A stretch of DNA of 62,191 nt, taken from the NCBI GenBank assembly GCA_020859845.1, contig JAJBVL010000043.1, positions 1 to 62,191 of the forward strand, written 5' to 3'. Shown here in pieces: positions 20,796 through 62,126 of the stretch. The first letter of the stretch is position 1. Each line of letters begins with the position of its first letter. Made by a program: the position numbers and the translations under genes. Source of the DNA: Bacteroidales bacterium. GTDB taxonomy: Bacteria > Bacteroidota > Bacteroidia > Bacteroidales > Muribaculaceae. The notes under the pieces were generated by a model. That model had not been told where the DNA came from, did not search any database, and worked only from the letters and a program-made list of their open reading frames with translations.

Positions 20796-21917
20796 CTATT
20801 CCACAAAGGGTTGGTAGGTGTCGGGGTTTATCACTTGAAAGGTGCTGTCGGGATAGGTGGCCATAAATGATTTGGGCGTACGGACCTTTGCTTTAGGATT
20901 CCATTTCATTTCAAAGGCCGCCAACTGTCCGTCTTTTTCCTCTATGAGGTCTATCTCACAGTTGTCGAGGGTGCGCCAAAAGTAGCTCTGTGAATAGTCT
21001 TGGCAATATGCATTGCGCTTCAGCCGCTCCACTACCATCATGTTCTCCCACAGCGCTCCCACGTCGTTGCGCGAGTCGAGAGGAGCAAAGTTGCCTATCA
21101 CCGCATTGCGTATCCCCAGGTCGTAGAAATACACTTTCTTGCCTTTCTTGATTTCGTTGCGCATATTCCGACTATAGGATTCTTGGCGAAACAATATGAA
21201 GCATTTCTCAAGCAGACCGATATATGTCTCCACGGTGGCACGGTCAACGCCGATAAGGTTGCTGAGCTCATTATACGACACCTCGCTCCCTATTTGCAGA
21301 GCTAAGGCCTTTACGAGCTTGTGGACCATCTCGGGCTTCTTGATGCCTTTATAGGATAGCAGATCCTTGTAAAGGTAGCTATTAGTGAGGGTGGCCAATA
21401 TCCTTCGTGCATCTCCGGGGTCGTTGATCACTTCAGGATACATCCCATAGACCAACCTCGTAGGCAGCAGTCGGTGAGTCTCTCGCCATCCTATTGAGCT
21501 GGCCATTTCGGCCAGCGATAGAGGGTAGAGGTTATACTCGATGAGACGCCCTGTGGCCGATTCGTTGACCCCGCTTGCCATGTCGAGCGACGAGCTCCCT
21601 GTGACGATGACCTGTGTGTCAAGCTTTAGGTCGCCTATTTTTTTCAATGTCAGTCCTATGCTGTCCACGCGTTGAGCTTCGTCGATAAAGACTATATCGT
21701 AAGGCGAAAGATGTTCACGCAGTTGGGTCGACGTCAAGCCTTCTATCTGCTGGGCATCATCATAGTCGTCACAATTGAGCGAAAGAATACGCTTGCCCGG
21801 CTCTTTGAGCTGGGAAAGGAGAGTAGTCTTCCCTACTTGCCTTGCGCCAAGCAATACTATCACTTTCTTTCGGTGATAGTCGGCCATTATCTGGTCTTTT
21901 ATCTTTCGGTCAATCAT
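20796..21917 (-). CDS. DUF4143 ATPase, first locus
   Basis: 373 residues from the ATG at 21917; the frame further upstream crosses the promoter. Walker A is GARQVGKT (24-31) and Walker B is DIVFIDEAQ (Asp79, Glu80), with a sensor-like VIVTGSSSLD. A winged-helix stretch (SYNELSNLIGVDRATVETYIGLL) joins the ATPase to a C-terminal DUF4143 domain whose CEIDLIEEKDGQLAAFEMKWN resembles a PD-(D/E)xK nuclease core. These AAA_14/DUF4143 proteins are abundant in Bacteroidetes and lack an agreed function. It has a consensus promoter that overlaps the first of four palindromes, so self-regulation is likely. All core motifs are intact. Confidence 0.88.
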   Translation of the reverse strand: MIDRKIKDQIMADYHRKKVIVLLGARQVGKTTLLSQLKEPGKRILSLNCDDYDDAQQIEGLTSTQLREHLSPYDIVFIDEAQRVDSIGLTLKKIGDLKLDTQVIVTGSSSLDMASGVNESATGRLIEYNLYPLSLAEMASSIGWRETHRLLPTRLVYGMYPEVINDPGDARRILATLTNSYLYKDLLSYKGIKKPEMVHKLVKALALQIGSEVSYNELSNLIGVDRATVETYIGLLEKCFILFRQESYSRNMRNEIKKGKKVYFYDLGIRNAVIGNFAPLDSRNDVGALWENMMVVERLKRNAYCQDYSQSYFWRTLDNCEIDLIEEKDGQLAAFEMKWNPKAKVRTPKSFMATYPDSTFQVINPDTYQPFVE

Positions 21918-21934
21918 TGCGGTATATATTTTTA

Positions 21935-21966
21935 CAAAGGTACAAACAATAATCTTGAAATCCAAA
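21935..21966 (-). promoter_or_regulatory. Promoter of the first DUF4143 ATPase gene
   Basis: Minus strand: TTTG (21966-21963), 20 bases, TACCTTTG (21942-21935). A full consensus match. The TTTG box falls inside the gene-proximal palindrome (21962-21985), so anything bound there would cover the promoter. Confidence 0.8.
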
Positions 21967-22085
21967 AAATAGGCCTAAAATTGTGATTCAATTCGCAAAA
22001 TTCGGCCTAAAATTGCGATTCAATTCGCAAAATTCGGCCTAAAATTGCGATTCAATTCGCAAAATTCGGCCTAAAATTGCGATTT
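21962..22085. repeat. Array of four 24-bp palindromes at 32-bp spacing
   Basis: Three units (21994-22017, 22026-22049, 22058-22081) are identical imperfect palindromes of the form CGCAA-N2-TT-N-GGCC-N-AA-N2-TTGCG. The gene-proximal unit (21962-21985) is diverged. Every GGCC centre is exactly 32 bases from the next, about three helical turns, so all would face the same side of the DNA. They are directly repeated and there is no variable spacer. The array lies immediately upstream of the DUF4143 ATPase promoter and overlaps it. A matching design stands before the ATPase at 60763. Confidence 0.9.
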
Positions 22086-34192: not shown

Positions 34193-34208
34193 ATCTGGGA
34201 GATTTATC

Positions 34209-34278
34209 TTAAAGATATCAACTTAAAGATATCAACTTAAAGATATCAACTTAAAGATATCAACTTAAAGATATCAAC
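34209..34278. repeat. Five tandem 14-bp repeats upstream of lolA
   Basis: The unit TTAAAGATATCAAC is repeated five times without change. It starts 16 bases upstream of the lolA start codon and ends 11 bases before the ftsK stop. Read toward lolA each unit contains TATCTTTA, close to the -7 consensus TAnnTTTG. A change in copy number by slippage would alter the lolA leader or promoter spacing. Confidence 0.9.
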
Positions 34279-39293: not shown

Positions 39294-39296
39294 TTA

Positions 39297-39360
39297 AGTC
39301 AAAAGTCAAAAGTCAAGAGTCAAAAGTCAAGAGTCAAAAGTCAAAAGTCAAAAGTCAAAA
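39297..39360. repeat. Tandem heptamer repeat (AAAAGTC/AAGAGTC)
   Basis: About nine copies of a seven-base unit run from just upstream of the DNA glycosylase start to the T9SS operon terminator. The only variation is A/G at one position. No promoter is visible in it. Confidence 0.9.
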
Positions 39361-58535: not shown

Positions 58536-59575
58536 TCAGAGCTGGAGCTTGAGGAATTCGCGAAGATGGAGGTGGTGAATACCAGGATATTCAGATATAG
58601 AGCCACTTATTGGGTCCATTGAGATTACATATTTCGGATAGTTGTCTTTTATCTCGGCAAGATTCCCAAATTCACGTTTTATAGCGTCGGGCGAACTCAG
58701 CAGGTAAGTGACCTGAATGTAAATCCTTTGCTCACCACGCTTAGCCACGAAATCAATCTCTCCGGCTCGTAGCTGACCTACTGTCACTTTAAAATCTTGT
58801 ACAAGCAAATGATGCCTCACCACATTCTCCATAATTTTCTCTATGCTTCCTCTTATATCAAAGTCATTCAGAAAATTGCGTAAGCCATGGTCGGCAAAGT
58901 AATATTTATAATTTTGCTCCAAAAGCTGCTTACCATGAACATCAAAGCGGTAGACAGGTGAGATTATTAGAGCCGCCGCTAGATGAGATAGATAAGTAGA
59001 AATAGTTATATCCGAGGCTGCATCCTTACCATCGCGCGCTTTAAGAAACTTTGCGATGCTCTTCGCTGAGAAGTTTTTCCCTATGTTATCGGCGATGTAG
59101 GCAGTAAGATTGTTGATGAAGGGCACGTTTCTTACCCTATGGCGCTCTATTACATCCTTCATCATCACAGTATTGTACACGCTTTGCAGATAATCGCGGA
59201 TATGACGTTCATCTTCTATCCCAAATACGCTTAGACCTGGCAGTCCTCCCACTCTTAAGTAGATACTTAGACTAGTGTCGCTGTCGTCAAGATTATAAAA
59301 ATTTAGAAACTCCAAATAGGAAAGGCTTCTATATCGGTAGCCCTTTCGTAGAGTTGGTCGGCATCGGTCAACTCTTTAGCACCTAATCTTTCCTTATCGA
59401 TATAAAGCACATGTGCTGAAGGCCGATTTTCCTCCAGCCAGCGTTTAAAGAGCAATAGTAGGTAACTTTTACCCACTCGGCGTTGCCCTACCAAAAAAAT
59501 CATCATCCCACGGTTGATTGAGGTGATGATATGATTGAGGTAGATAGGTCGGTCTATGAGTTTCAAGTTTGCCAT
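58536..59575 (-). pseudogene. DUF4143 ATPase with internal deletion, second locus
   Basis: The first part (ATG at 59575, MANLKLIDRPIYL) has Walker A VGQRRVGKSYLL and runs to YERATDIEAFPI, then a shifted stop at 59303. The second part continues from YLEFLNFYNLDDSD in another frame through YLRVGGLPGL, a winged-helix region (SAKSIAKFLKARDG) and a C-terminal GEIDFVAKRGEQRIYIQVTY nuclease-like core. Between them, near 59318, the stretch that should hold Walker B (LFIDEIQD-like) and the sensor, some 90-100 residues in relatives, is absent. The gene is therefore dead as an ATPase, yet its promoter is perfect. The second frame could still make a 259-residue fragment. Confidence 0.85.
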
Positions 59576-60614: not shown

Positions 60615-60702
60615 CACATTTTTAGGCCTAACTTTGTGATGAATCCCACATTTTTAGGCCTAACTTTGTGATGAATCCCACATTTTTAGGCCTAACTTTG
60701 TG
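60615..60702. repeat. Array of three 24-bp palindromes at 32-bp spacing
   Basis: Three identical units start at 60615, 60647 and 60679, each CACA-N4-TTAGGCCTAA-N2-TTGTG-like: outer CACA/TGTG and inner TTAGGCCTAA are inverted, with three mismatched pairs between. The spacing of exactly 32 bases and the central GGCC equal those of the array at 21962-22081, although the flanking bases differ. The last unit contains the TTTG promoter box of the DUF4143 ATPase gene. Confidence 0.9.
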
Positions 60703-60728
60703 ATTATCTCCTCTTTTTACTAATTTTG
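60697..60728 (+). promoter_or_regulatory. Promoter of the third DUF4143 ATPase gene
   Basis: TTTG (60697-60700), 20 bases, TAATTTTG (60721-60728), full consensus. The TTTG is part of the right arm of the last palindrome (60679-60702). The start codon is 34 bases downstream. Confidence 0.82.
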
Positions 60729-60762: not shown

Positions 60763-62061
60763 ATGAAACGCAAGGCTTCGGAAGATATTCTAAAATGGTA
60801 TCATATGCCAAATCGTCAACCTCTAATAATCAAAGGGGCGCGACAGGTAGGTAAGACATGGATAATGAAAGACTTTGTGGCTCAACAAAGCCTTCCTTTT
60901 GTATACATAAACTTTGAGGACGAAAAGACTCTTCAGGATTTGTTTATTCAGGACTTTGATTTGCAAAGAATACTTGAGAGAATATCCCTACAGAAGAATG
61001 TAGAGATTACTCCTGACACAGTGTTGCTTTTTGATGAAATACAAGAGGCCCCTCATGGCATCACAGTGCTTAAATATTTCGCAGAAAAACTGCCCCAACA
61101 ACCAGTAGTAGCTGCTGGCTCCTTGTTGGGGATTGCTATGCATTCCAACGACTCTTTCCCTGTCGGTAAGGTTGACTTTATGGAGGTGCTCCCCATGGAT
61201 TTTGAGGAGTATCTATGGGCAGCCGGAGAAAGTGGTCTTTCAATGGCTATTAAAGAAAAGAAATGGCCTCTCATCACGTCGCTTAAAGAAAAGTTGACAC
61301 GATTGTTACGGACTTACTATTACATTGGAGGAATGCCAAAAGTAGTTGCCAACTTCATGAAGGATGGAGATTTTTCGGCTGCCCGTAGGATACAAGAAGC
61401 CCTATTGGCATCTTATGAAAATGATTTTTCAAAACACGCTCCAGCCTCCCTTGTGCCTCGGTTAAGGCTTGTGTGGCATTCTCTTGTGTCCCAATTGGCT
61501 CGTGAAAACAAAAAGTTTCTTTATGGATTGGTCAAAACAGGTGCAAGAGCGCGTGAATATGAGATGGCCTTAGAATGGCTTGAAGACGCTGGTGTCATCT
61601 ATAGGGTGTATCGCACAAAAAGTGGAGAGTTCCCGTTGAAAGCCTATTTGGACCCAGGAGCCTTTAAAGTGTTTTTAATGGATATAGGACTTTTGGGTGC
61701 AATGTGTGGGATAACGCCTCAAACTGTCGTGGATAGAAGCGACCTTTTAGGCTCTTTCAAAGGCGCTTTGGCGGAGCAATATGTTTTGCAGCAACTACGT
61801 CCTATGAAGGACACTTTAATCTATTATTGGTCGGCAGAAGCCTCCGATGGGGAGATTGATTTTCTCCTTCAGCAGGCTGGGAAAGTGGTGCCAATTGAGG
61901 TAAAAGCCGAAGAAAACTTGCGCGCCAAAAGTCTGCGTGTCTTTTCTCAAAAATACGCCATTGCTATGGCCCTTCGATTTTCTATGGCCGACTATCGCGA
62001 GCAAGACTGGATGACGAATATTCCTCTCTATGGCGTACAGGGAGCATTTTCCCGAGAATAA
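60763..62061 (+). CDS. DUF4143 ATPase, third locus
   Basis: 432 residues. Walker A GARQVGKT (25-32), Walker B TVLLFDEIQE (Asp91, Glu92), sensor-like VVAAGSLLGIAM, then a helical region and a C-terminal domain where SDGEIDFLLQQAGKVVPIEVKA (about 363-384) has the E...D...ExK arrangement of a PD-(D/E)xK nuclease. Complete, unlike the copy at 58536-59575, and of a different subtype from that at 20796-21917 (it shares only the core motifs). It is preceded by a palindrome array of the same design. Followed by a tandem repeat and a third copy of the palindromic element. Confidence 0.88.
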   Translation: MKRKASEDILKWYHMPNRQPLIIKGARQVGKTWIMKDFVAQQSLPFVYINFEDEKTLQDLFIQDFDLQRILERISLQKNVEITPDTVLLFDEIQEAPHGITVLKYFAEKLPQQPVVAAGSLLGIAMHSNDSFPVGKVDFMEVLPMDFEEYLWAAGESGLSMAIKEKKWPLITSLKEKLTRLLRTYYYIGGMPKVVANFMKDGDFSAARRIQEALLASYENDFSKHAPASLVPRLRLVWHSLVSQLARENKKFLYGLVKTGARAREYEMALEWLEDAGVIYRVYRTKSGEFPLKAYLDPGAFKVFLMDIGLLGAMCGITPQTVVDRSDLLGSFKGALAEQYVLQQLRPMKDTLIYYWSAEASDGEIDFLLQQAGKVVPIEVKAEENLRAKSLRVFSQKYAIAMALRFSMADYREQDWMTNIPLYGVQGAFSRE

Positions 62062-62068
62062 CTAACTT

Positions 62069-62126
62069 CACTTCCTCATTTGAGGCATTTTCACTTCCTC
62101 GTTTGAGGCATTTTCACTTCCTCATT
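62069..62126. repeat. Tandem 23-bp repeat after the third DUF4143 ATPase gene
   Basis: Two full units and one partial (62069-62091, 62092-62114, 62115-62126) with period 23. Each contains the inverted pair CCTCA-TT-TGAGG (one unit with G for A). They begin eight bases after the ATPase stop and could act as weak terminators. Confidence 0.8.

Follow-up and report, generated by a model that had tools for sequence, protein, structure and literature searches.

In plasmids, the direct repeats read by a Rep protein, its iterons, lie beside its own gene and measure two to three helical turns, and archaeal Orc1/Cdc6 proteins are paired with ORB repeats. In phage defence, the available part of one study describes RptR, a small regulator with a 6-bp palindrome, as the repressor of a phage-defence island (PMC12255303). 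BrickBuilt, in Porphyromonas gingivalis, consists of intergenic 23-nt tandem repeats within a MITE and, in the sections available, occurs 19 times per genome (PMC4596501). PDC-S01, an ATPase fused to a PD-(D/E)XK domain, is ranked as the fourth most common defence across prokaryotes, with 29,494 copies in bacteria and 9,986 in archaea; it is a phage-defence candidate by genetic embedding, validation being pending for most PDCs, and the available part of this account is silent on promoter arrays, on any DNA site and on a recognition code (PMC12988326).

Here, we describe a tandem array in front of a PDC-S01 gene from a Muribaculaceae bacterium, in a stretch of 62,191 nucleotides (contig JAJBVL010000043.1) that we refer to as the window. 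The arrangement recalls RptR, as far as that study is available, in that a DNA-binding protein would occupy direct repeats in a defence-gene promoter (PMC12255303). Here, however, the ATPase-nuclease itself is the apparent reader, and its paralogues have units of their own. The array shares with plasmid iterons the position of direct repeats beside the gene of the protein that would read them, but 32 members of the family occur in one genome. Unlike Orc1/Cdc6, one of its fold neighbours, the ATPase has an extra PD-(D/E)XK-like domain and its sites are locked to a promoter. BrickBuilt is similar in its intergenic 23-nt tandem repeats but is one element present 19 times within a MITE, and the word ATPase is absent from the main text as available (PMC4596501). 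A search of the open-access literature, with subscription papers and preprints mostly outside its scope, retrieved no report of DUF4143 promoter arrays, and nothing was found in that literature on AAA_14 in Bacteroides or on AAA winged-helix proteins that repress themselves. Cognate operators at which a protein regulates itself are known as such; judged from sequence, the private, clade-fixed form of this arrangement in the DUF4143 family would be new and unexpected.

The ATPase gene and its upstream array

The gene (20796..21917, minus strand) encodes a 373-aa AAA_14-DUF4143 ATPase that matches the PADLOC profile of PDC-S01 (E 2.2e-154, 512 bits) as well as Pfam DUF4143 (E 2.2e-39, 135 bits, cut-off 28.1) and AAA_14 (E 1e-27, 97 bits, cut-off 27); we take COG1373 to comprise the AAA_14-DUF4143 ATPases. 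An NCBIfam search gave nothing over cut-off, and a PDB sequence search returned weak RecA matches alone. The AlphaFold2 model (mean pLDDT 89.8) contains a winged helix at residues about 195-264 (21126..21335, minus strand), made of helices 195-207, 215-222, and 226-238 and strands 242-247 and 260-264, in which D225-R226-A227 (codons at 21237..21245, minus strand) cap the N-terminus of the recognition helix 226-238. The C-terminal part (20802..21062, minus strand) is PD-(D/E)XK-like, with E321, D323, and E336 invariant and K338 conserved at 90% or more among 35 sequences, the protein L271 having been excluded from the alignment for an internal stop. These four residues match the D...E-x-K catalytic pattern of PD-(D/E)XK nucleases. 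The earlier note had read a winged-helix stretch and a nuclease-like domain in the chain. Among the matches shown, fold-search alignments cover mainly residues 1-284, both for the archaeal AAA+ ATPases SSO1545 (2fna) and PABY2304 (2qen) and for STAND NTPases such as CED-4, NLRs, and Avs5; the neighbours also include Orc1/Cdc6, a DNA loader, and this whole-protein query gave no separate match for the C-terminal domain among the matches shown. To our knowledge, DNA arrays have not been associated with SSO1545, PABY2304, or the STAND NTPases named.

The array (21962..22084, minus strand) consists of 32-bp units arranged head to tail, of which three are exact and one is degenerate, and lies 45-48 bp upstream of the ATG (21917); TRF delimits it at 21965-22084, with a period of 32, 3.8 copies, a 96% match, and 48 bp to the ATG. 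Four GGCC centres 32 bp apart, starting at 21972, 22004, 22036, and 22068, are present as the earlier note described, and so are the 24-bp palindromes that it drew around them, but these are imperfect (7, 9, 9, and 9 of 12 pairs). Because the half-sites alternate in orientation, palindromes are also possible at centres shifted by 16 bp, where TTGCGATTC meets AATTCGCAA at 21989/90, 22021/22, and 22053/54 (9, 10, and 10 of 15 pairs). The resulting CA-centred sites, to which no strand is assigned, lie at 21981..21998 (site 1, nearest the gene, TTGTGATTC and AATTCGCAA), 22013..22030 (site 2, TTGCGATTC and AATTCGCAA), and 22045..22062 (site 3, again TTGCGATTC and AATTCGCAA). Since relatives with one or two sites, their upstreams judged by eye, mostly show the CA-centred register, which the site score used on relatives favours by design, a unit centred on CA is more likely to be the one bound than a unit centred on GGCC. 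The GGCC-centred register is probably mistaken, nor is GGCC a general feature, the units differing between genes.

The array is private to the ATPase gene. A core 19-mer searched with up to two mismatches occurs at four places in the 2.9-Mb genome, all of them in the array, while its reversed control occurs at none; the array was found at no unrelated locus, an outcome on which the earlier note had made its idea depend. The uniqueness of the unit in the genome rules out a dispersed repeat family; a regulon is ruled out by the confinement of all matches to the CA-centred site (at most two mismatches, whole genome) to the array, and a CRISPR array by the head-to-tail 32-bp units devoid of unique spacers. 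Among 295 genomes of the order, AATTSGGCCTAAAATTGCGA with up to two mismatches matches 6, the five others once each with two mismatches, and its reversed control matches 9. An exact 24-mer was found in no viral stretch, and a pattern of 16 fixed bases matched 30 viral contigs once each, about what chance would give by our own estimate, so that an occurrence of the sites in viruses was discarded.

Bacteroidota promoters have a -33 TTG and a -7 TAnnTTTG element. Ahead of the ATPase gene, TACCTTTG (21935..21942, starting at 21942, minus strand) is the likely -7 box and TTTTTTGG (21962..21969, minus strand) the likely -33 element. The degenerate unit overlaps TTTTTTGG; "perfect promoter" is the earlier note's own wording.

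Arrays and sites across DUF4143 genes

The 2.9-Mb genome contains 32 DUF4143 matches, 31 of them over the cut-off, compared with 0 to 11 in each of the 24 same-genus genomes searched alongside. At least many of the DUF4143 upstreams, among those listed from 59 loci, carry arrays, each with its own unit. We assembled 122 DUF4143 genes, excluding those without a Walker motif, a suitable ATG, or 150 bp of upstream sequence and dropping identical N-termini; 36 of them reached a tandem score of at least 22, versus 24 of 441 other genes of the genome. The periods of the 36 strong arrays are 23 (13 genes), 24 (1), 32 (5), 33 (16), and 46 (1), whereas those of the 24 strong controls are scattered, with 1 of the 441 genes at 33. 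The remaining 86 of the 122 genes have no strong array, and among 46 DUF4143 genes with a weaker signal the best period is 32 or 33 in 25. A TRF scan of 750 kb, made up of the window, 20 stretches chosen for DUF4143, and 20 chosen regardless, gave 19 intergenic arrays with a period of 23, 24, 32, or 33, of which 15 precede a DUF4143 ORF by at most 300 bp; such ORFs are 36 of the 600 scanned, and two of these 15 arrays resemble general GC-rich repeats. The other four precede one of two further ORFs, lack a gene, or are orphans at the end of the window.

The array period follows the protein clade. When the 122 proteins are placed on a tree, a period of 23, 24, or 46 is found in each of the 16 genes whose Walker A motif is GPKWCGKT-like, and strong arrays in other clades have 32 or 33, L068 showing 40 at the laxer score of 18. 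When the GPKWCGKT clade was enlarged to 61 genes (the 16 included; loci lacking a suitable ATG or 100 bp of upstream sequence and repeats of one protein excluded), the best period was 23, 24, or 46 in 60, and 50 had a tandem score of at least 18. The array of the window is one case of a trait that DUF4143 genes often display, with a unit proper to each gene and a period in one of two classes, 23/24 or 32/33 bp. The enrichment at DUF4143 genes that the earlier note proposed to look for is found for arrays of these two classes, whose units differ from one gene to another.

Some further features were noted. The window holds a second DUF4143 ATPase gene of another clade (60763..62061, plus strand), preceded by a private array of a different unit (60615..60704, plus strand, period 32, 2.8 copies). 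Right behind that gene, at 62067-62126, lies an orphan 23-bp array whose minus-strand unit, GCCTCAAATGAGGAAGTGAAAAT, shares the grammar of the GPKWCGKT clade, no gene of which adjoins it in the window; this array is perhaps the relic of a lost gene. A further DUF4143 match (58536-59575) is split into two ORFs (58536-59165 and 59303-59575) and looks like a broken gene. Two repeats lie at most 20 bp upstream of the start of non-DUF4143 ORFs, a 14-bp tandem repeat at 34208-34278 (5.1 copies) and a 7-bp AAGTCAA repeat at 39296-39360 (9.3 copies). By eye, L016, L019, L021, L057, and L068, which belong to the GPRQSGKT and GxRRxGKS clades, have long inverted repeats near the promoter and no strong array.

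For the window's own clade, a second set of 80 named loci yielded 75 genes after the exclusion of four partial matches and one short upstream. The best period is 32 or 33 in 54 of the 75, versus 20 of 206 neighbouring genes; tandem scores of at least 18 are found in 29 (all at 32/33), versus 6 neighbours (three at 32/33), scores of at least 20 in 23 (all at 32/33), versus 3 neighbours (none at 32/33), and inverted repeat scores of at least 12 in 37, versus 8 neighbours. The half-site of this clade, read by eye, is TTTT-NNN-ATT. Used as a filter at a score of at least 11, it detects a site in 79 of 162 window-clade genes; the corresponding counts are 4 of 448 for controls from the same genome, 10 of 206 for neighbours, and 50 of 810 for Markov-shuffled upstreams. 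At a score of at least 16, the counts are 55 of 162 versus 2 of 448, 3 of 206, and 2 of 810, respectively. The lower threshold leaves 83 of the 162 genes without a site, and therefore about half of the clade without a recognisable one. Among 14 loci that lie outside Bacteroidota by title, five have a site (Verrucomicrobia, Termititenax, Victivallis, Treponema, and Endomicrobium).

These sites and the promoter stand in a fixed phase to each other. Of the 79 site-bearing genes, 59 have a TAnnTTTG box no more than 75 bp from the ATG, and in 53 of the 59 it starts in one 8-bp arc of the 32-bp site lattice, 12 to 19 bp past a site centre modulo 32; permuted boxes gave a mean of 26.7 and a maximum of 36 in 2000 permutations. 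The TACCTTTG box of the window lies 47-48 bp from the nearest site centre, which places it in the +48 class of its relatives. Because the sites are fixed relative to the polymerase site, they argue for transcription control, of which repression would be the simplest form, activation being also possible. The guess that the ATPase controls itself thus draws support, at the level of sequence, from the fixed phase of box and sites.

Covariation of recognition-helix residues with half-site bases

Binding of the array by the ATPase would lead one to expect covariation between the site bases and residues of the protein's own DNA-reading helix. In a first set of 41 of 95 genes (score of at least 14, agreeing half-sites, G at offset 5 in both), the column that best follows offset 6, the middle base of NNN, is residue 227, with a z of 16.3, the next being its neighbour 226 at 5.4. 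With 67 further genes, an enlarged set was built from the 79 of 162 genes that have a site, 77 after de-duplication at 85%; for each offset, only genes with two agreeing half-sites were counted (n=62 at offset 6), gappy columns were skipped in both runs, and invariant columns were skipped in the enlarged one. Residue 227 again leads at offset 6 (z 17.6, next column 6.6), with K paired with G in 27/27, N with T in 8/8, H with G in 6/6, Q with C in 5/5, and I with T in 2/2, while A (two A, two C, one G) and L are mixed and R splits 1 and 1. Held-out loci, 67 usable of 69, provided 11 genes evaluable by the first-set rule, and the base was predicted correctly from residue 227 in 9 of them, including 4 of the 5 whose nearest first-set protein is less than 60% identical; both misses have A227. 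A relaxed count gives 12/14 and includes the H to G rule, which was added after the held-out result had been seen.

Other offsets behave differently. At offset 5, residue 225 (z 16.7, D with G in 51/53) is closely followed by columns 50, 27, and 205 (15.6, 13.1, and 13.0), a sign of shared descent. Residue 226 at offset 7 has a z of 4.7 versus 4.6 for residue 227, with K paired with G in 12/14, R with G in 5/7, and S with T in 9/10, and at offsets 3, 11, and 12 the top columns are 154, 201, and 317 (z 8.4, 7.5, and 9.7), outside the winged-helix tip. With such rival columns elsewhere, only the signal of residue 227 stands clear. We also counted tree-independent pairs on a tree built without columns 222-231. 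Two of five tests have a p below 0.05: 227 K/H with G (5.7 of 6 pairs agreeing, none opposite, median p 0.03) and 226 K/R with G (7.0 of 9 agreeing, none opposite, p 0.016). The others are 225 D with G (5.0 of 6, none opposite, p 0.06), 227 N with T (4.3 of 6, none opposite, p 0.125), and 227 Q/E/D/A with C, which is weak (1.9 of 4, 0.3 opposite). In the window itself, D225 and R226 fit the triplet GCG, and A227 is not decoded.

For the 23-bp clade, 53 of its 61 genes were used (50 once de-duplicated). The columns are scattered for most unit positions, some of them exceeding the recognition-helix column in z, and a clean multi-position code was not found in this clade, the positions other than those of the residue before the invariant Thr being scattered. 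That residue, the counterpart of residue 227, pairs K with G in 11/12, in the same sense as residue 227, and D with C in 9/9 at unit position 10 and 7/9 at position 11, N being mixed. The covariation at residue 227 and the structure model together indicate that the ATPase itself is probably the reader of the array, as the earlier note had guessed in proposing that it may bind these sites.

A predicted self-operator and its alternatives

We consider it highly probable that the array serves the ATPase gene as a private operator, with predicted binding through the winged helix and most likely self-repression. Putative dimers of the ATPase would bind the palindromic half-sites, TTTT-NNN-ATT in the window's clade, contacting DNA through the winged helix that lies between the ATPase core and the PD-(D/E)XK domain. 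The middle NNN base would be chosen by residue 227, which sits in the first turn of the recognition helix, and residues 225 and 226 may choose the bases beside it. The 32-bp spacing, three helical turns, would line up the protein on one face of the DNA, perhaps cooperatively, at a constant phase to the promoter; the bound protein would most likely repress transcription of its own gene until it leaves the DNA. As paralogues have their own units, cross-regulation among the many copies of a genome would not be expected.

Alternatively, the array might be the site of action of the ATPase-nuclease, which would load there and then remodel, cut, or copy the locus that encodes it in an iteron-like or homing fashion. 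Such an activity would suit private sites that adjoin the gene, conserved PD-(D/E)XK residues, and DNA-loading fold neighbours such as Orc1/Cdc6, as well as the patchiness of the ATPase, a homologue of which (E <= 1e-60) was found in 3 of 34 genus genomes, its own included, while the flanking M16 and OmpA genes were found in 34/34 and 30/34, respectively (side by side in no genus relative among the matches listed). The locking of the sites to the promoter speaks against it, and we regard this explanation as improbable.

Binding of the arrays by a distinct host regulator, with the ATPase being only the gene under its control, would accord with the way dedicated regulators normally bind promoter repeats, as RptR does with three direct repeats in a defence island in the available part of its study (PMC12255303). 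Such a regulator, however, would make neither the half-site base follow residue 227 of the ATPase nor the period follow the ATPase clade, and the unit of the window is private to its gene, which makes this explanation very unlikely. Slippage minisatellites without function would account for copy numbers from about two to ten and for near-identical tandem units, which suggest recent duplication, but they deserve next to no credence given two clade-fixed period classes at one gene family, relatives whose diverged copies keep the period and the palindromes, and the promoter register of the sites.

The private operator lends itself to a bolder extension, which we hold possible but doubtful: PDC-S01 proteins may be self-addressed STAND-like switches, for which the array would be both an operator and a leash that keeps the ATPase-nuclease inactive and local via a readable winged-helix code. 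If so, the leash would be released by invasion, DNA damage, or loss of the array, a genome with dozens of orthogonal copies would have as many sensors working in parallel without interference, and a few residues would suffice to predict which DNA each PDC-S01 copy binds.

PDC-S01 exists in tens of thousands of copies, and we found no tested function for it in the open-access literature. With the arrays, its members would have a defined DNA ligand, which opens their binding, their regulation, and their ATPase or nuclease activity to direct assay. A simple recognition code is suggested by the covariation, along with, by prediction, a natural series of orthogonal DNA-binding proteins. Finally, self-operators in a family of defence candidates would bear on how such genes stay quiet.
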